Origin: an uncultured Coriobacteriaceae bacterium
GTDB taxonomy: Bacteria; Actinomycetota; Coriobacteriia; Coriobacteriales; Atopobiaceae
Direction of reading: 5' to 3'
Assembly: GCA_902795065.1 (NCBI GenBank)
Contig: CADBJR010000018.1
Location: forward strand, 1 to 64,000
Length of the DNA: 64,000 bases
The position numbers and the translations under genes are program-made. Below the pieces are notes generated by a model. It had not been told where the DNA came from. It saw only the letters and a program-made list of their open reading frames with translations, and did not search any database. This document shows positions 53,415 through 62,869 of this stretch, piece by piece. Each line of letters starts with the position of its first letter. The first letter of the stretch is position 1.

Positions 53415-56400
53415 ATGGCCTGCGCTGTCTGCGGAAGCGAGCTGATCGCCGACGCCGTGTACTGCCCGCACTGCGGAACCGCCGTCGAGGGAGCCGTCGA
53501 GTGCGAGGACTTCGCCTACGAGGCGTTCATCAGCTACCGTCACCTCGAAACCGACCGCAAGGCGGCCATGAAGCTGCAGAAGGCGATCGAGGGCTATCGG
53601 ATCCCCAAGCAGCTGCAGGAGCAGGCGGGCAGAGCGCGTCTGGGCAAGTGCTTCCGCGATGAGGACGAGCTGCCCACGTCCGCCTCGCTCTCCGAGCAGA
53701 TCGAGGACGCCCTCAAGCGCTCGCGCTTCCTGATCGTCGTCTGCACGCCCCAGACCCGCGAGAGCCTGTGGGTCATGCGCGAGGTCGAGACGTTCGCCTC
53801 CTACCATGGCCGCGACCGCATCCTCATCGCGCTTGCCGACGGCGAGCCTGGCGAGAGCTTCCCGCCCCTCATCCTCTCCCGCCTCATCGCAGGGGAGGGC
53901 GGTGTCGTGGAGGAGCCCTCCGAGCCGATCGGAGCGGATCTGCGCGACCTCTCGCGCAAGAAGTTCGATGTCGAGAAGCTCCGCATCATATCGACCCTCA
54001 TCGGTTGCAGCTTCGACGACCTCCGCCAGCGTGCCCGCACGCGCCGCACCCGCATCATCGCGACCATCTCCGCCGCCATCACCGCCATCTCGACGGGATT
54101 CGGCAGCTTCGCCACCTACCAGCAGCACAGGATCGAGGAGAGCTACGAGCAGATCCAGGTCGAGCAGTCGGAATTCCTCGCGCGGGAGTCGGGGGAGCTG
54201 CTCGCATCGGGTGACCGCTACCAGGCCGTGCAGGTCGCGCTCTCCGCGCTTCCCCTCCTCTCGGCCAGTCCCGACCGGCCGTTCGTGCCCTCGGCTCAGC
54301 TGGCGCTCGAGCAGTCCCTCGGCATCTATCCCGGACCCTCGGATTGGGCGCCCCTCTATTCCCAGACCGGTCTTGCAGACCGTAGCCTCGATGCCGCCTT
54401 CTCGAGCAACGGGGAAGGCCTCGAGGCGGTGTTCACCGACGATGCCTCCCTCGAGGTCCGCGAATCCGTCACCGGCAACATCGTGAACCGGATCGACGTC
54501 GAGGGGCAGCTCGGTACGAGGATCTCCTCATCGACCGTGTACGCTGCGGTCGAGTTCGCCGGCGATGACGTGCTCGTCGTGCTCAACGGGGTCATCGGCT
54601 GCTTCGACGCCGAAGGCGGCGAGCTGCTCTGGAAGCAGGAGATCGAGGGCATCTCGTACAGCGACTGCTCTCTGGCGGTCTCTCCCGATGGGACTCGCGC
54701 GGCGGTGTCCGTGGAGTTCGTGGTGGGGAGGGACAAGCTGCCCGTCCTCGTGATCGACGTGGCGAGCGGCAAGACCGTGCAGACCATCGACCTTCCCGGA
54801 TTCGCCACGTTGGGATTGGAGGCGTCCTCGTTCTACGAGGATCCGGTCGTCGCGTTCTCCCCGGATGGGGAGCATCTCGCCGTGGGAACGTGGGGCAGGC
54901 TCTTCTGGATCGACCTCGAGACGGGAACGTTCGAGCAGCGCACGCTGCACTTCGATTCCGCCTACACCATCTCGTTCGTCGACGGCCTCATCGCGGTGTT
55001 CGCGCGCGACAGCGCGGGGCTGTACACCAAGATGCCCATGAGCCTCGAGGTGTTCGATGCCGAATCGCTTGCGCTCCTCTGGGAACGCGACAAGGTCTAT
55101 GAGGCGAACTACAACCTCGAGATCGGAGGGGACTACTACACCACCTGCGGCGCCTACGGGACCTGGAGCTACTACGGCGGCGATGATACGCAGTTCGTCG
55201 TGCTATTCGCGAACGAGCTGCTCCTGCTCGACGAGAAGACGGGCGAGGAGGTCCTCTCGATCCCGAGCGCATCGGGATATCTTGATTGTCTGGTCACCGA
55301 GGCGCGCGGCAAGCAGCGCATCTTCGCCACGATGTCCGACGGCACCGTGATCTGCCGCCGCCCGTTCGAGAGCAACGACGGCAAGGGCGGCAGCGTATCC
55401 GACACCGTGCTGTTCGACCGCTTCCCCCACTACAGCGACCTGTACGAGATCGAGGGGCGCGTGTACTGCTCGGAATGGACCGCCATCGCCGACAAGCGCG
55501 TGGTGTACCGGTTCTTCACGCCCGACGATCTCGTCGAGTCATACACGTTCTCGGGTGCAACCACCAACGACCTCATGGACTTCTCGTGGACCGATCCGGT
55601 CCTCGCGCTGCGCACCAAGACGGGCATCATCCTCGTCGACGGCGAGACGATGAAGGTGCGCGCCATCGTGCCCTACGAGCGCATGCACGGGCTCGATACC
55701 CAGTACCTCAGCTCGATGGGATCCATGCTCGACAGCGCGGGCAACGTCTTCCTGCTGGGTGACCTCCGCGTTGGCGATGGCGGCACGGAGGGGTCCGTCA
55801 TCTACCGCATCGACGGTGCGGACGGCTCTGCGACGGAGCTCGCGACGTTCGATCCCGGCCTCTCCGTCGAGCTGGTCGACTTCATCGATACCCCCGCGGG
55901 TGCGGTCGGCCTCGTCGTTCAGGAGACCGGATTCTCCGAGAGCTTCGTCGAGGTCATCCCCCTCGGCGAGGTCGAGCCGTTGCGCGTCGCCATCCCCCGG
56001 TCCACCAAGGTGTGGTTCGCGGGCGAGCGGATCATCTGCTTCTCGAATCAGAGCACTGCAGAGCACGCGTTCACGCTTATCGACGCCCTGACGGGGGAGG
56101 AGCTCGAGACCGACCTCGCGAACTATGCGATGCCCATCGATGCCGTCTCGCGCAGGTGCGCATCTATCTCGCCCGATGGGCTGTTCTTCGCGGTCTCCTG
56201 CTCGGACGGCGCGCTGAGGATGTTCGATACGGTCACGGGCACGATGGTCTGGGAGACCTTCGACGCGCCTTCGTCCATCCAGTTCCTGAAGCTCGCGCTC
56301 GGCGGCAACGTCTTCATCCAGGATGGGTTCGGGCGCTGCGTGCTCGTGTCGGGTCTGACGGGCACCGTGCTCGACGCGAGCTCGGCGGCGATCCCCCCGA

Positions 56401-56741
56401 TCGACACCGCCGTCTTCCGCAACGACGGGGCGACGCTCACCGCCTACTTCAAGGAGGCCGGTATGAACGGCGCCTTCGGCCTCGTCGACTTCTCGCTCGC
56501 CGAGGAGTCGTTCGGACCTCTGAGCATCATCTACGACTCCTGCTACCTCTCGCCCGGCGACGGCGGCTACATCCTGTCCGTGGACGATTTCACGGGAGAG
56601 CTCGTCGTCTCGCGCAAGCTCTCGCTCGACGAGGAGCTGCTGTACGGCCGCGAGCTGGTCATCGGCCACGAGCTCACCGCTGCCGAGCGCCAGCTCTACC
56701 AGACGGGCGACCGCGATGCGATTCCGATCGGAGATCTGTGA
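53415..56741 (+). CDS. Zinc-ribbon / TIR / transmembrane / beta-propeller protein
   Basis: 1108 residues. Residues 3-20 are a zinc ribbon (CAVC, CPHC). About 34-205 is a TIR domain: YEAFISYRHLETDRKAAMKL, GKCFRDEDELPTS, FLIVVCTPQTRESLWVMREVE, HGRDRILIALADGEPGESFPP. SLWVMRE places a Glu (123) where NADase-active TIR domains have their catalytic Glu. A helix at about 213-235 (IIATISAAITAISTGF) likely spans the membrane. About 300-1090 is a repetitive beta-propeller (SPDGTRAAVSV, SPDGEHLAVGTW, SPDGLFFAVSCSDGALRMFD) ending HELTAAERQLYQTGD, common at WD40 ends. The family is frequent in gut Firmicutes and Actinobacteria; role unknown. First gene of a three-gene coupled operon. Confidence 0.9.
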   Translation: MACAVCGSELIADAVYCPHCGTAVEGAVECEDFAYEAFISYRHLETDRKAAMKLQKAIEGYRIPKQLQEQAGRARLGKCFRDEDELPTSASLSEQIEDALKRSRFLIVVCTPQTRESLWVMREVETFASYHGRDRILIALADGEPGESFPPLILSRLIAGEGGVVEEPSEPIGADLRDLSRKKFDVEKLRIISTLIGCSFDDLRQRARTRRTRIIATISAAITAISTGFGSFATYQQHRIEESYEQIQVEQSEFLARESGELLASGDRYQAVQVALSALPLLSASPDRPFVPSAQLALEQSLGIYPGPSDWAPLYSQTGLADRSLDAAFSSNGEGLEAVFTDDASLEVRESVTGNIVNRIDVEGQLGTRISSSTVYAAVEFAGDDVLVVLNGVIGCFDAEGGELLWKQEIEGISYSDCSLAVSPDGTRAAVSVEFVVGRDKLPVLVIDVASGKTVQTIDLPGFATLGLEASSFYEDPVVAFSPDGEHLAVGTWGRLFWIDLETGTFEQRTLHFDSAYTISFVDGLIAVFARDSAGLYTKMPMSLEVFDAESLALLWERDKVYEANYNLEIGGDYYTTCGAYGTWSYYGGDDTQFVVLFANELLLLDEKTGEEVLSIPSASGYLDCLVTEARGKQRIFATMSDGTVICRRPFESNDGKGGSVSDTVLFDRFPHYSDLYEIEGRVYCSEWTAIADKRVVYRFFTPDDLVESYTFSGATTNDLMDFSWTDPVLALRTKTGIILVDGETMKVRAIVPYERMHGLDTQYLSSMGSMLDSAGNVFLLGDLRVGDGGTEGSVIYRIDGADGSATELATFDPGLSVELVDFIDTPAGAVGLVVQETGFSESFVEVIPLGEVEPLRVAIPRSTKVWFAGERIICFSNQSTAEHAFTLIDALTGEELETDLANYAMPIDAVSRRCASISPDGLFFAVSCSDGALRMFDTVTGTMVWETFDAPSSIQFLKLALGGNVFIQDGFGRCVLVSGLTGTVLDASSAAIPPIDTAVFRNDGATLTAYFKEAGMNGAFGLVDFSLAEESFGPLSIIYDSCYLSPGDGGYILSVDDFTGELVVSRKLSLDEELLYGRELVIGHELTAAERQLYQTGDRDAIPIGDL

Positions 56742-57613
56742 TGAGCGATAGCAGCGTATCGAATGCCGGTGCCATCGGGCCCGAGGACTACGTCGAGCCG
56801 CGCTGTGTGCTCAGCGGCGATCCCTACGGCACCGTGCCCGAGATCAAACCCGTGCCCCAGCAGCGCATCATCGAGAAGATGGACGACTACATGGCGCGGC
56901 GCGACTACGACGGCGCCGAGCGCCACCTCCTCTACTGGCTCGAGGAGGCCCGTCTCGGCCATGACCTGCGCGGTCAGCTGATGATCGAGGGCGAGCTCGT
57001 CGGGCATTACCGCAAGACGGGCGAGAAGGACAAGGCGCTCGCCCATGGCGAGGAGGCGCTGCGCCTCATCGACGAGCTGGAGTTCGGCGATACCATCAGC
57101 GCGGGGACCACCTACGTGAACGTGGCGACCGCGCTCGACGCCTTCGGCGAGCGCGAGCGCGCGATCGGGCTGTTCGAACGCGCCCGCGCGGTCTACGAGG
57201 CGAGCCCCGCGACCAGGCCCGAGCTTCTGGGCGGGCTCTACAACAACATGGCGCTCACCTGCGTCGACCTCGGACGCTTTGCGGAGGCGGCGGAGCTGTA
57301 CGGCCGCGCCCTCGCCCAGATGGAGAAGGTGGAGGGCGGCGAGCTCGAGCGCGCCATCACGCTGCTCAACATTGCCGACGCCCTCGTGGCCGAGCAGGGC
57401 ATGGAGGCGGTCGAGGGCCGTGTCTTCGACCTGCTCGACGAGGCCTACGGGCTGTTCGACGCGACCGCCGCGCCGCGCGACGGCTATTACGCCTTCGTCT
57501 GCGAGAAGTGCGCGCCTGTGTTCTCCCATTACGGCAGCTTCCTCGCTGCGGACGACCTCTCGGCCCGTGCGGAGGGCATCTACGCGCGCGTCGGGGAAGG
57601 GGAGGGGCGATGA
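56741..57613 (+). CDS. Tetratricopeptide-repeat protein of the TIR operon
   Basis: 290 residues. After a variable N-terminus, TPR-like helical pairs run from about residue 50 (MARRDYDGAERHLLYWLEEA, HYRKTGEKDKALAHGEEALRLI, AFGERERAIGLFERARAVYEA, DLGRFAEAAELYGRALAQME). No enzymatic motif, so it is probably an adaptor or sensor scaffold. Its ATG overlaps the TIR stop (TGATG), and its stop overlaps the next start (ATGA), so the three genes are translated together. Confidence 0.85.
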   Translation: MSDSSVSNAGAIGPEDYVEPRCVLSGDPYGTVPEIKPVPQQRIIEKMDDYMARRDYDGAERHLLYWLEEARLGHDLRGQLMIEGELVGHYRKTGEKDKALAHGEEALRLIDELEFGDTISAGTTYVNVATALDAFGERERAIGLFERARAVYEASPATRPELLGGLYNNMALTCVDLGRFAEAAELYGRALAQMEKVEGGELERAITLLNIADALVAEQGMEAVEGRVFDLLDEAYGLFDATAAPRDGYYAFVCEKCAPVFSHYGSFLAADDLSARAEGIYARVGEGEGR

Positions 57614-58551
57614 GGGGACTCGAGCTCGCACGCTCCTACTTCGAGGAGTTCGGCCGCCCGATGCTCGAGCGCGACTTCGCCGAGGTCCTGCCCCATCTCG
57701 CGGTGGGGCTTGCCGGGAGCGGATCGGAGTGCTTCGGCTTCGACGACGACGTCTCGCGCGACCATGATTTCGAGCCCGGGTTCTGCGTGTTCCTCCCCGG
57801 AGAGGACCTTGTCGACCGGCGCACCGCCTTCCTCATGGAGCGCGCCTACGCGAAGCTCCCCAAGGAGTACGGCGGTGCATCGCGCTCGCTCATGGCCCCC
57901 GTCGGCGGTGCGAGGCACGGCATCATGCGCACCACCGAGTTCTTCTCGGAGAAGACGGGCGCGGCTGATGGCGTGCTCACGCTGGGACAGTGGCTCGCGG
58001 TGCCCGAGCATGCGCTTGCGGAGGCGGTGAACGGCGAGATCTGGCTCGACAACCTGGGCGAGGTCACGCGCATCCGCTCGAGCCTCGCCGCCTGGCCCGA
58101 GGACGTGCGCAGAAAGAAGCTTGCCGGCCAGCTGCTGCTCATGGCCCAGGCAGGCCAGTACAACTACGCGCGCTGCATCGCCCATGGCGAGGTCGCAGCC
58201 GCGCAGCTGGCCGCATACGAGTTCTCCCGCGCCGCCATCGGGGCGATCTTCCTGCTCAACCGCCGCTACCAGCCCTACTACAAGTGGGCGTTCCGCGCGC
58301 TCCGCTCGCTGCCCGTGCTCTCGATCGAGGCCGAGCTGCTCGAGTACCTCATCACCACGGGCAACGACGGCGAGATGGCCGAGGAGAAGGCCGCCGTCAT
58401 CGAGGGCATCGCGGCCGACGTGATCGACGAGCTCATCGAACAGGGGCTCACGAAGGCGGTCTGCGGCGACCTCGAGAAGCACGCGTATTCGGTGAACGAC
58501 GGCGTGGAGGATGCCGGCCTGCGCAACGCCCACATCCTCTCCGCGGTATAG
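57610..58551 (+). CDS. DUF4037 nucleotidyltransferase-fold protein
   Basis: 313 residues. LAVGLAGSGSECFGFDDDVSRDHDFEPGF (about 31-58) has the G-S-x-S and spaced Asp residues of the polymerase-beta nucleotidyltransferase fold, followed by the helical DUF4037 C-terminus (GEIWLDNLGEVTRIRSSLAAWPEDVRRKKLAG and AFRALRSLPVL). Metal-binding Asp residues look intact, so nucleotide transfer to a small molecule, protein or RNA is possible. DUF4037 commonly follows a TPR gene. Stop/start overlap with the TPR gene. Confidence 0.87.
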   Translation: MRGLELARSYFEEFGRPMLERDFAEVLPHLAVGLAGSGSECFGFDDDVSRDHDFEPGFCVFLPGEDLVDRRTAFLMERAYAKLPKEYGGASRSLMAPVGGARHGIMRTTEFFSEKTGAADGVLTLGQWLAVPEHALAEAVNGEIWLDNLGEVTRIRSSLAAWPEDVRRKKLAGQLLLMAQAGQYNYARCIAHGEVAAAQLAAYEFSRAAIGAIFLLNRRYQPYYKWAFRALRSLPVLSIEAELLEYLITTGNDGEMAEEKAAVIEGIAADVIDELIEQGLTKAVCGDLEKHAYSVNDGVEDAGLRNAHILSAV

Positions 58552-58553
58552 GT

Positions 58554-58641
58554 CCCCGTTCGGGGATACTCCCCGAACGGGGAGGTGAATTATCGGACCC
58601 GTAGGCCTATCATCCCGTTCGGGGAGTACCCCCGAACGGGG
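58554..58641. repeat. Twin hairpin repeat CCCGTTCGGGG
   Basis: Two hairpins: CCCCGTTCGGGG-ATACT-CCCCGAACGGGG (58554-58582) and CCCGTTCGGGG-AGTAC-CCCCGAACGGG (58614-58640), separated by 31 AT-richer bases that include TAGGCCTA. It may end the TIR operon and isolate nrdG. A different family from the GGGACAGG palindromes. Confidence 0.85.
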
Positions 58642-58669: not shown

Positions 58670-59362
58670 ATGAAGATCCACGGCCTGCAGAAGATGACCC
58701 TGCTGGACTTCCCCGGGCGCGTCGCGTGCACGGTCTTCCTGGGCGGATGCGACTACCGCTGCCCGTTCTGCCACAACTTCGAGCTGGTGGACGGCACGGC
58801 GCCCGCGATCATGGACGATGGCGAGCTGCTCTCCTTCCTGCGCAAGCGCCAGGGCCTGCTCGACGGCGTCGCCATCACCGGCGGCGAGCCCTGCCTGCAC
58901 GACGGCCTGCCCGACCTGCTTGCCCGCATCCGCGAGCTCGGGTTCGCGACCAAGCTCGACACCAACGGCTGCCATCCGCGCATGCTCGAGCGGCTCCTCT
59001 CCGAGCAGCTCGTCGACTACGTCGCGATGGACGTCAAGAACAGCCCAGAGAAGTACGCGCGTACGGCCGGCGTGGAGCACGTCGACCTCGATGCGATCGC
59101 CGAGAGCATCCGCCTCATCATGGATGGGGCGCCCGACTACGAGTTCCGCACCACCGTGGTGCACGAGCTCCACGAGGCCGACGACTTCCATGCCATGGGC
59201 AAGATGATCGCCGGCGCCAAGGCCTACTTCCTCCAGAGCTTCACCGACCGCGACACGGTACCGTTCGCCGGACTCTCCGCACCCTCGGCGGACGACCTCG
59301 CCGCCTATGCCGGCATCGCACGCCTCTATGTGCCGAACACGCAGGTACGAGGCGTGGACTGA
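58670..59362 (+). CDS. nrdG: Anaerobic ribonucleotide reductase activating protein NrdG
   Basis: 230 residues. Radical SAM: the CxxxCxxC of Cys27, Cys31 and Cys34 (GGCDYRCPFCHNFEL) binds the 4Fe-4S cluster. GGEPCLHDGLPDLLARI, DTNGCHP and VAMDVKNSPEKY are conserved. Generates the glycyl radical in NrdD. Slightly longer than minimal NrdG. GGAGAGGAG precedes the start. nrdD follows after a 174-base leader with NrdR-like boxes. Confidence 0.94.
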   Translation: MKIHGLQKMTLLDFPGRVACTVFLGGCDYRCPFCHNFELVDGTAPAIMDDGELLSFLRKRQGLLDGVAITGGEPCLHDGLPDLLARIRELGFATKLDTNGCHPRMLERLLSEQLVDYVAMDVKNSPEKYARTAGVEHVDLDAIAESIRLIMDGAPDYEFRTTVVHELHEADDFHAMGKMIAGAKAYFLQSFTDRDTVPFAGLSAPSADDLAAYAGIARLYVPNTQVRGVD

Positions 59363-59450: not shown

Positions 59451-59536
59451 CTCTCCCACCTGCGCAGTGGTATTGTATGTTGGCTTGAGAATGCCATGCC
59501 ACGGCAATCGGTTCGAGGATGACTGGAGGAGTAGAG

Positions 59537-61945
59537 ATGTACCAGGTAGTGAAGAGGGACGGCACCATCGCGGAGTTCGATATCTCCAAGATCAGCGCAG
59601 CTATCACCAAGGCGTTCGACGCGCTCGAGAAGCAGAGCCATCCCAGCGTGATCGACCTCATCGCCCTCCATGTCACCGCCGACTTCGAGTCCAAGGTCAA
59701 GGACGGCAAGGTCACGGTCGAGGAGATCCAGGACTCCGTCGAGAAGGTCCTCTCCGAGTCCGGCTATGCCGACGTCGCCAAGGCCTACATCCTCTACCGC
59801 CGCCAGCGCGAGAAGATCCGCAACGTCAACTCCGCCCTCCTCAACTACAAGGACCTCGTCGACAACTACCTCAAGATCAACGACTGGCGCGTCAAGGAGA
59901 ACTCCACCGTCACCTACTCCGTGGGCGGCCTCATCCTCTCCAACTCCGGCGCCATCACCGCCAACTACTGGCTCTCCGAGGTCTACGACGACGAGATCGC
60001 CGAGGCGCACCGCTCCGCGGCCATCCACCTGCACGACCTGTCCATGCTCACCGGCTACTGCGCCGGCTGGAGCCTGAAGCAGCTCATCCAGGAGGGCCTC
60101 GGCGGCGTTCCCGGCAAGATCACCTCCTCGCCGTCCAACCACCTCTCCACCCTCTGCAACCAGATGGTCAACTTCCTCGGCATCATGCAGAACGAGTGGG
60201 CCGGTGCGCAGGCCTTCTCCTCCTTCGACACCTACCTCGCCCCCTTCGTGAAGGTCGACAACCTGTCGCAGAAGGAGGTCAAGCAGTGCATCCAGTCGTT
60301 CGTCTACGGCGTCAACACCCCCAGCCGCTGGGGCACGCAGGCTCCGTTCTCCAACATCACGCTCGACTGGGTCGTGCCCAACGACCTCAAGAACCTCCCC
60401 GCGATCATCGGCGGCAAGGAGATGGACTTCACCTACGGCGACTGCCAGCATGAGATGGATATGGTCAACAAGGCCTTCATCGAGATCATGATCGAGGGCG
60501 ACGCCAACGGCCGCGGCTTCCAGTACCCCATCCCCACCTACTCGATCACCCGCAACTTCGACTGGTCCGAGACCGAGAACAACAAGCTCCTCTTCGAGAT
60601 GACCGCCAAGTACGGTACCCCGTACTTCTCCAACTACATCAACTCCGACATGGAGCCCTCCGACGTGCGCTCCATGTGCTGCCGCCTGCGCCTCGACCTG
60701 CGCGAGCTCCGCAAGAAGTCCGGCGGCTTCTTCGGAAGCGGCGAGTCCACCGGCTCGATCGGCGTCGTGACCATCAACCTGCCGCGCATCGCCTACCTGG
60801 CCGCCGACGAGGCCGACTTCTACAAGCGCCTCGACCACCTCATGGACATCGCCGCCCGCAGCCTCAAGACCAAGCGCACGGTCATCACGCGCCTGCTCGA
60901 GCAGGGTCTCTACCCCTACACCAAGCGCTATCTGGGCACCTTCGACAACCACTTCTCCACCATCGGCCTCATCGGCATGAACGAGGTGGGCCTCAACGCC
61001 AAGTGGCTCCGCGCCGACCTCACCGACGAGCGCACCCAGCGCTTCGCCCGCGACGTCCTCAACCACATGCGCGAGCGCCTCTCCGACTACCAGGAGAAGT
61101 ACGGCGACCTCTACAACCTCGAGGCCACGCCGGCCGAGTCCACCACCTACCGCTTCGCCAAGCACGACACGGAGCGCTACCCCGGCATCATCACGGCCAA
61201 CATGAACGGCACGCCCTACTACACCAACTCCTCGCACCTGCCCGTGGGCTACACCGAGGACGTCTTCTCCGCCCTCGACATCCAGGACGACCTGCAGACG
61301 CTCTACACCTCCGGCACGGTCTTCCACGCGTTCCTCGGCGAGAAGCTCCCCGACTGGAAGGCGGCCGCCAACCTCGTGCGCAAGATCGCCGAGAACTACA
61401 AGCTCCCGTACTACACGATGAGCCCCACGTACTCCGTCTGCGCCGACCACGGCTACCTTACCGGCGAGCAGTTCACCTGCCCGATCTGCGGCAAGAAGAC
61501 CGAGGTCTACAGCCGCATCACCGGCTACTACCGCCCGGTCCAGAACTGGAACGACGGCAAGGCCCAGGAGTACAAGGACCGCCGCGTCTACAACATCGGC
61601 CACTCCAAGCTCACGCACGTCGGCCCCAACCCCGCGCCGGTCGACTCCGAGCCCGCCGACTTCAAGCCTGCCGAGCCCGCAGCCGCCGTCGAGGCCGCTC
61701 CCGTCGCCGCCAACGGCCAGGTCTACCTGTTCAAGACGCCCACCTGCCCCAACTGCAAGGCCGCAGGCGCCCTGCTCGACAAGGCCGGCGTCGCCTACAC
61801 CGCGCTCAACGCCAACGAGGAGCGCGAGCTCGTGGCCAAGTTCGGCGTCAAGCAGGCCCCCACGCTGGTGCTCGTCGACGCCGACGGCGGCTTCGAGAAG
61901 TTCCGCGGCGTCTCCGACATCAAGGGTTGGCTCTCGAAGAGGTAG
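59537..61945 (+). CDS. nrdD: Anaerobic ribonucleoside-triphosphate reductase NrdD with fused thioredoxin-like domain
   Basis: 802 residues. N-terminal ATP-cone (MYQVVKRDGTIAEFDISKISAAI) with VKDGKVTVEEIQDSVEKVL, catalytic barrel with CDS-like loops, then a partial zinc site CADHGYLTGEQFTCPICGKK. The glycyl radical lies in RRVYNIG (Gly688). After a Pro/Ala linker, residues about 728-802 are a thioredoxin/glutaredoxin-like domain with CPNC (737-740) and a conserved PT turn (QAPTLVL). It likely feeds electrons to the reductase, with trxB following by 9 bases. Start at 59537 has GGAGGAG; an upstream start at 59519 is less suited. Class III, oxygen-sensitive. Confidence 0.95.
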   Translation: MYQVVKRDGTIAEFDISKISAAITKAFDALEKQSHPSVIDLIALHVTADFESKVKDGKVTVEEIQDSVEKVLSESGYADVAKAYILYRRQREKIRNVNSALLNYKDLVDNYLKINDWRVKENSTVTYSVGGLILSNSGAITANYWLSEVYDDEIAEAHRSAAIHLHDLSMLTGYCAGWSLKQLIQEGLGGVPGKITSSPSNHLSTLCNQMVNFLGIMQNEWAGAQAFSSFDTYLAPFVKVDNLSQKEVKQCIQSFVYGVNTPSRWGTQAPFSNITLDWVVPNDLKNLPAIIGGKEMDFTYGDCQHEMDMVNKAFIEIMIEGDANGRGFQYPIPTYSITRNFDWSETENNKLLFEMTAKYGTPYFSNYINSDMEPSDVRSMCCRLRLDLRELRKKSGGFFGSGESTGSIGVVTINLPRIAYLAADEADFYKRLDHLMDIAARSLKTKRTVITRLLEQGLYPYTKRYLGTFDNHFSTIGLIGMNEVGLNAKWLRADLTDERTQRFARDVLNHMRERLSDYQEKYGDLYNLEATPAESTTYRFAKHDTERYPGIITANMNGTPYYTNSSHLPVGYTEDVFSALDIQDDLQTLYTSGTVFHAFLGEKLPDWKAAANLVRKIAENYKLPYYTMSPTYSVCADHGYLTGEQFTCPICGKKTEVYSRITGYYRPVQNWNDGKAQEYKDRRVYNIGHSKLTHVGPNPAPVDSEPADFKPAEPAAAVEAAPVAANGQVYLFKTPTCPNCKAAGALLDKAGVAYTALNANEERELVAKFGVKQAPTLVLVDADGGFEKFRGVSDIKGWLSKR

Positions 61946-61954
61946 GACAGGACC

Positions 61955-62869
61955 ATGCATGACGTCATCGTCGTCGGCGGCGGCCCCGCCGGCATGACCG
62001 CCGCGCTGTACGCGCTGCGCAACGGCAAGAGCGCGCTCGTCATCGAGAAGGCCGGCTTCGGCGGGCAGATCACCCACAGCCCCAAGGTGGAGAACTACCC
62101 GGGCACCCTCTCCGCGAGCGGCAACGAGATCGCCGACGGCATGTTCGACCAGATCATGGCGCAGGGTGCCGACATCGAGGTCGAGACCGTATGCGAGATT
62201 CGCGACGAAGGCGGCGTCAAGCGCGTCATCACCGAGGAGGGCACCGAGCACGAGGGCCGCGCGGTCGTCATCGCGACGGGCGTCAAGCACCGCATGCTCG
62301 GCCTTCCCGGCGAGGAGGACCTCGTGGGCGAGGGCATCTCGTTCTGCGCGGTCTGCGACGGCGACTTCTACGCTGGCCAGACGGTCGCCGTGGCGGGCGG
62401 CGGCAACTCGGCGCTGCAGGAGGCGATCCTTCTGGCCGAGAAATGCCGCGAGGTCATCATCCTGCAGGACCTGCCGCAGCTCACGGGCGAGACCAAGCTC
62501 CAGGAGGTCCTGCTCGCGCGTCCCAACGTGCGTGTGGTCTGCAACACGCGCCTCACGGGGCTCGTCACGGACGGCGGGGAGTTCGCGGGCGTCGACTACG
62601 AGGACCGAGCGACGGGCGAGACGCACCGCGTCGCGTGCGACGGGCTTTTCGTCGCCATCGGCCTCATCCCCGAGAACAAGCCGTTCGAGGCGCTGGCAGA
62701 CCTCAACGACTGGGGCTACTTCGACTCCGACGAGCGGTGCTGCACGCGCACGCCGGGCGTCTACGTGGCGGGCGACTGCCGTTCCAAGGGCGTCCGCCAG
62801 CTCACGACCGCCGTCGCCGACGGCGCGACCGCCGCGCTCGCAGCCTGCCGCTACATCAACGGTCTCTGA
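61955..62869 (+). CDS. trxB: Thioredoxin reductase
   Basis: 304 residues. Two-dinucleotide-binding fold: FAD motif VVGGGPAGMTAALYA, redox pair Cys131/Cys134 in FCAVCDGDFYAGQ, NADPH motif VAVAGGGNSALQEAI (the usual GGGDSA reads GGGNSA) and C-terminal GVYVAGDCRSKGVRQL. Reduces thioredoxin-like partners, most likely the domain fused to NrdD just upstream. ATG follows GGACAGGACC; no typical AGGAGG. Confidence 0.94.
   Translation: MHDVIVVGGGPAGMTAALYALRNGKSALVIEKAGFGGQITHSPKVENYPGTLSASGNEIADGMFDQIMAQGADIEVETVCEIRDEGGVKRVITEEGTEHEGRAVVIATGVKHRMLGLPGEEDLVGEGISFCAVCDGDFYAGQTVAVAGGGNSALQEAILLAEKCREVIILQDLPQLTGETKLQEVLLARPNVRVVCNTRLTGLVTDGGEFAGVDYEDRATGETHRVACDGLFVAIGLIPENKPFEALADLNDWGYFDSDERCCTRTPGVYVAGDCRSKGVRQLTTAVADGATAALAACRYINGL

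Follow-up and report, generated by a model that had tools for sequence, protein, structure and literature searches.

The DNA analysed here (the window) is a 64,000-nucleotide stretch from an uncultured Coriobacteriaceae bacterium. Three genes, referred to as A, B and C, occupy positions 53415-58551 as open frames that overlap stop-to-start, as a preliminary description of this locus had stated. That description drew its boundary at the end of gene C and stopped short of three conserved downstream partners, nrdG, nrdD and trxB. The features of the extended locus are as follows.

53415-56741, + strand: gene A, zinc ribbon, TIR domain, probable membrane helix and beta-propeller, 1108 aa (Pfam)
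56741-57613, + strand: gene B, TPR protein, 290 aa (Pfam TPR_12)
57610-58551, + strand: gene C, DUF4037 protein with polymerase-beta-type nucleotidyltransferase and HEPN-like domains, 313 aa (Pfam DUF4037)
58554-58641, no strand assigned: two long near-perfect dyads, CCCCGTTCGGGG...CCCCGAACGGGG, between the DUF4037 gene and nrdG
58670-59362, + strand: nrdG, radical-SAM activase of the anaerobic ribonucleotide reductase (Pfam Radical_SAM, Fer4_12)
59519-61945, + strand: nrdD, class III ribonucleotide reductase (Pfam ATP-cone, NRDD, Glutaredoxin)
61955-62869, + strand: trxB-like thioredoxin reductase (Pfam Pyr_redox_2, 1e-41)

The stop codon of A (56739-56741) overlaps the ATG of B as TGATG, and the stop codon of B (57611-57613) overlaps the ATG of C as ATGA. 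Such overlaps point to coupled expression and are weak evidence of shared function, because they are common in the window: by rough gene calls, 5 of 36 codirectional neighbours overlap and 14 of 36 lie within 20 bp of each other. The overlap between A and B is seen in the window's genome only. That between B and C is conserved in relatives. The close loci are those of the 80 nearest relatives that gene C has among GTDB genomes, at 65-80% identity; in 55 of about 78 of them the overlap is exactly 14 bp long.

The TPR-DUF4037 pair and its protein folds

Comparison with relatives indicates that B and C are a real, conserved and overlapping pair. All but one of the 80 close loci are labelled as Clostridia or other Bacillota. 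Every one of them contains a TPR homologue, which in 74 lies directly upstream of the DUF4037 gene, and the same arrangement is found in 20/20 of an order-level sample and in 12/19 of a family sample. In some genomes the two parts are joined in a single protein (loci L156 and L159, and L229 from Fusobacterium), and one 930-aa protein, encoded at L158 (8443-11235, - strand), fuses TPR, DUF4037 and DUF4125 domains. These fusions show that the parts act together. Distant DUF4037 proteins of aerobes (Sinorhizobium, Xanthobacter and Streptomyces) are encoded alone, with neither a TPR gene nor a glycyl-radical enzyme nearby.

Two database records that contain the pair carry unexpected labels. The Fusobacterium fusion, which has DUF4125 nearby, lies in a 2.1-Mb ‘plasmid’ record (NZ_CP084075.1) that resembles a chromosome. 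An unannotated and unverified ‘Bacteriophage sp.’ record (MT835476.1) includes a TPR-DUF4037 pair (46% identity) among genes that look bacterial, and is likely to be a mislabelled bacterial scaffold.

The product of gene C matches Pfam DUF4037 (PF13228) at 1.6e-34, with 119.1 bits against a curated cut-off of 22.1. The polymerase-beta aspartates reported earlier are borne out by alignment of 149 homologues, in which D51 is kept in 149, D53 in 147 and D147 in 146. Membership of the polymerase-beta group is further indicated by the order of the motifs, first GS, then DxD, then a third Asp on a later strand, with G36, G38, S39, D51, D53 and D147 each present in at least 146 of the 149. Since the three aspartates are near-invariant, the enzyme is probably active. 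The pocket residues QYN..R and PYYKW are invariant across all of the contexts in which DUF4037 occurs.

A search of PDB sequences with the DUF4037 protein gave no match, so folds were compared instead; NCBIfam gave no match either. The AlphaFold2 model (pLDDT 90.7) consists of a polymerase-beta nucleotidyltransferase domain with a HEPN-like bundle C-terminal to it. Its fold neighbours include 3c18 (Z 12.5), ANT(4') (Z 11.8) and LinB (Z 10.5), at about 10% sequence identity to the solved ANT(4') and LinB enzymes, and Foldseek E-values are weak (best 2.2e-3). The C-terminal domain aligns with the HEPN protein 2hsb (Z 11.3, rmsd 2.6 over 112 residues), and the model also resembles the HepT chain of MntA-HepT. 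The assignment of gene B as a TPR protein holds, with a Pfam TPR_12 match of 1.9e-16 and an AlphaFold2 model of 12 helices (pLDDT 90.5) similar to TPR proteins that bind peptides and proteins, KLC1 and Rap among them. A metal site in the TPR protein (C22, C25, C254, C257) was considered and discarded, as only some members of the family have these residues and the window protein has Ser at position 25.

Linkage to ribonucleotide reductase and other glycyl-radical enzymes

The genes downstream of the pair recur in relatives. Both nrdG and nrdD follow the DUF4037 gene in 57/70 close loci with at least 800 bp of downstream sequence, nrdG being directly 3' of it in most. Where the sequence of a close locus extends 4.5 kb or more past the pair, 28/39 have the full series nrdG-nrdD-trxB, trxB being the third gene after DUF4037. 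Upstream of the pair, no gene family is shared by more than 5 of the close loci. In the window, the NRDD domain, the Gly-radical motif (RITGY) and the NrdG activase together identify a class III operon. The NrdD protein has an N-terminal ATP-cone (5.9e-24), the NRDD domain (7.3e-192) and a fused C-terminal glutaredoxin domain (1.8e-6) by Pfam. The presence of this fused domain, beside trxB, suggests that NrdD is a redoxin-dependent rather than a formate-dependent class III reductase. Thioredoxin-dependent class III operons with nrdD, nrdG and trxB are known, the Neisseria bacilliformis type being an example. The window operon shares this grouping of nrdG and nrdD with a thioredoxin reductase but differs in being led by TPR-DUF4037 and in having glutaredoxin fused to NrdD.

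Searches for a class I/II reductase (PF02867) found none in the window's genome, in the same-genus genome G080 or in four Clostridia in which the pair and the nrd genes are linked (G321, G345, G898 and G925). NrdD therefore appears to be the sole ribonucleotide reductase of the window's genome, in which no PFL-type glycyl-radical enzyme was found. The window NrdD shares 89-90% identity with the NrdD encoded next to TPR-DUF4037 in Clostridia; two same-genus genomes (G078 and G079) have no DUF4037, and their NrdD is 54% identical and lacks the glutaredoxin extension. From these identities, read without a tree, it is probable that the block tpr-duf4037-nrdG-nrdD-trxB as a whole was exchanged with Clostridia.

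The association is not universal. In a sample of 247 genomes taken at order level, 38 have DUF4037 (E<=1e-50); nrdD or nrdG adjoins it in only about 6-7 of these, and the genes around most of the remaining pairs are unrelated. It is mainly within a single close clade that the nrd link occurs. Moreover, NrdD does not need DUF4037, because most of about 105 genomes with this NrdD have none.

The two dyads between the DUF4037 gene and nrdG are the only strong copies in the window. They can fold on each other (RNA fold -73 kcal/mol, z -4.8), gave no Rfam match, and have similar, looser counterparts in the same interval of G080 (L022, 5420-5535). They are a possible operator or attenuator, and could separate the tpr-duf4037 and nrd transcription units.

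Glycyl-radical enzymes of other types also occur near the pair. In further genomes of the family, judged by eye and from homology, TPR-DUF4037-DUF4125 lies with shell-like proteins, aldehyde and alcohol dehydrogenases, and a glycyl-radical enzyme with its activase. Apparent glycyl-radical microcompartment loci of this type are seen in many Coriobacteriia of the same family (L023-L034 and L178). In 17/39 genomes, against an expectation of about 1.9, DUF4037 has a PFL-type glycyl-radical enzyme no more than about 11 kb away; the figures become 7/29 and 1.4 (tail 2e-4) when the shared microcompartment lineage is counted once. The test assumes random placement, was devised post hoc and corrects only partly for kinship. 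Alongside these lineages and the nrd-linked close loci there are many unlinked copies, yet the proximity itself recurs. A universal tie was rejected, as many order-level pairs and the aerobic homologues have no glycyl-radical enzyme nearby. A limonene glycyl-radical operon also encodes LrcL (DUF4125) and LrcM (DUF4037) (PMC12583861). LrcM is a DUF4037 protein expressed from an operon for a glycyl-radical enzyme, a setting that it has in common with the window pair, but the enzyme and the phylum are different and the paper presents both proteins as being of unknown function (PMC12583861).

Candidate functions of the pair

The comparisons of sequence and gene order support the existence of the pair, its intact catalytic residues, its operon context and a recurrent glycyl-radical neighbourhood. 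The reading that we tentatively favour is a TPR-guided nucleotidyltransferase pair that acts on glycyl-radical machinery, with the TIR gene independent of it. The TPR-guided nucleotidyltransferase part of it is drawn from the fold and Asp triad of the DUF4037 protein and from the likeness of the TPR protein to binders of peptides and proteins. As a two-component nucleotidyltransferase, the pair would have DUF4037 as its catalytic subunit, with a polymerase-beta fold, a three-Asp metal site and the HEPN-like C-terminal domain, and the TPR protein as an adaptor that recognises the partner. In the window the pair stands at the head of tpr-duf4037-nrdG-nrdD-trxB, the operon of the one ribonucleotide reductase that was detected. 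It would attach a nucleotide, probably AMP taken from ATP, to some glycyl-radical component, which may be NrdD, NrdG or a redox partner, in order to adjust or protect the glycyl-radical machinery. We infer catalysis, donor and purpose, and place the target at NrdD, NrdG or another glycyl-radical component on the basis of gene order. The invariant pocket residues would also fit a small-molecule substrate, and to that extent argue against such a target.

A broader form of this proposal is that TPR-DUF4037, in some cases with DUF4125, is a dedicated module for post-translational control or repair that nucleotidylates radical enzymes or their activases, and so regulates the sole ribonucleotide reductase here and in many gut Clostridia; we regard it as speculative and rather doubtful. 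To our knowledge, covalent nucleotidyl control is known neither for ribonucleotide reductase nor for any glycyl-radical enzyme. If the proposal were true, the regulator would act on the supply of DNA precursors where NrdD is the only reductase found, and there would be a shared function for DUF4037, and perhaps DUF4125, across microcompartment and other glycyl-radical loci. Among the openly accessible journal papers searched, none connected the pair with NrdD or with the class of glycyl-radical enzymes. The DUF4037 family is already known, and its link to these enzymes appears to be undescribed in the literature searched. The entry for Aminoglycoside_NT_C/DUF4037 (PF13228) in a survey of HEPN domains (PMC3710099) records the same domain, with nucleotidyltransferase domains and occasional TPR fusions, but the entry itself names no nrdG-nrdD operon or glycyl-radical link.

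The pair might instead be a general nucleotidyltransferase of proteins or metabolites, acting on one constant substrate that has no relation to glycyl-radical enzymes; it would then have been placed in nrd and microcompartment loci only through its usefulness to anaerobes and through co-transfer. The unrelated neighbours of most order-level copies fit this explanation, as do the strong invariance of the pocket in every context and the Fusobacterium fusion, which has DUF4125 and no glycyl-radical enzyme recognised within 9 kb. It accounts less well for the recurrence of glycyl-radical enzymes near the pair in independent lineages, or for the tight nrdG-nrdD order in many species, and we consider it possible but somewhat unlikely.

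It is less probable, and in our view unlikely, that DUF4037 is a small-molecule nucleotidyltransferase of the aminoglycoside or lincosamide type, which would inactivate an antibiotic or metabolite while the TPR protein aids its stability or localisation. ANT(4') and LinB, which combine a nucleotidyltransferase with a helical domain, are the closest solved folds (Z 10.5-11.8), and the HEPN survey, in its entry for the family, groups DUF4037 with the C-terminal domain of aminoglycoside nucleotidyltransferases (PMC3710099). However, those enzymes are encoded by resistance genes, whereas the DUF4037 protein is only about 10% identical to the solved ones, has no NCBIfam match and sits in a housekeeping operon. 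We know of no conserved TPR partner for nucleotidyltransferases of the aminoglycoside or lincosamide types.

A toxin-antitoxin-like module akin to HEPN-MNT, in which the nucleotidyltransferase controls a HEPN-like toxin, is very improbable: MntA-HepT likewise combines a nucleotidyltransferase with a HEPN-like helical bundle, and the likeness to the HepT chain and the overlapping two-gene layout fit, but type VII systems have separate MNT and HEPN genes and a catalytic Rx4-6H motif, whereas here both domains are fused in one protein with R188-x3-H192, the partner is a TPR protein, the operon is a housekeeping one, and the survey's entry lists no catalytic motif for the DUF4037 family (PMC3710099).

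The TIR/propeller gene

The preliminary description had taken all three genes as one unit, with a nucleotide-signalling or antiphage logic, and had named rare adjacency of the families in relatives as the observation that would count against it. That is what was found. A TIR/propeller gene is present in 0/80 of the close loci (within the flanks fetched) and in 0/60 further DUF4037 neighbourhoods, so the three-gene unit is not conserved. DUF4037-like proteins occur in 20/140 family genomes and homologues of A in 24/140, in varying contexts; the two families are found together in 1/140, the window's own, and TIR homologues adjoin TPR-DUF4037 in 0/16 regions inspected. G080 has TPR-DUF4037-nrdG in that order, preceded by other genes, and no TIR/propeller gene there. 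This comparison removes the TIR protein as a member of the unit, and the proposed signalling or antiphage logic falls with it. What remains in favour of a single nucleotide-signalling or antiphage system is the pair of overlaps in the window's genome, the conserved TIR glutamate and one weak PADLOC match, of the TIR region of A to PDC-S66 (E 3.6e-4 over 50 residues). No PADLOC model matched B or C, PHROGs gave no match for A, B or C, and a known antiphage system for the pair was rejected on these results. We conclude that the three-gene system has been largely refuted by comparison and is highly unlikely.

Gene A is nevertheless much as first described in its domains. Pfam supports the TIR domain (TIR_2 7.5e-8, ThsB_TIR 7e-7) and the propeller (PQQ_2, 1.9e-10), and the zinc ribbon falls just below the family cut-off (best E 5e-6). 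The membrane helix is less certain and corresponds to a modest hydropathy peak of 1.58 at residues 214-232. The Glu at the NADase position, in the WxxxE motif, is E123 and is kept in 17/17 aligned sequences; by this residue A may well be an NADase. A TIR domain with the WxxxE glutamate is common to gene A and to Thoeris ThsB and other TIR defence proteins, but A also carries the propeller and zinc ribbon, has no recognised Thoeris partner alongside, and is unlinked to B-C in relatives. Judged by its distribution, A is a stand-alone family and an independent, chance neighbour upstream of B-C.

Several genomes hold many copies of A-like genes, and in some genera this zinc-ribbon TIR propeller family has grown to several members in each genome (L045-L071; G125, G127, G129, G133 and others). 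In the same-genus genome G081, an A-like gene follows the same CmpB-like gene as in the window, and the contig ends inside it. In G064 (L199), a TIR/propeller homologue adjoins several WXG100-like and zinc-ribbon proteins and another TIR-like protein, in what is perhaps a secretion or conflict region.
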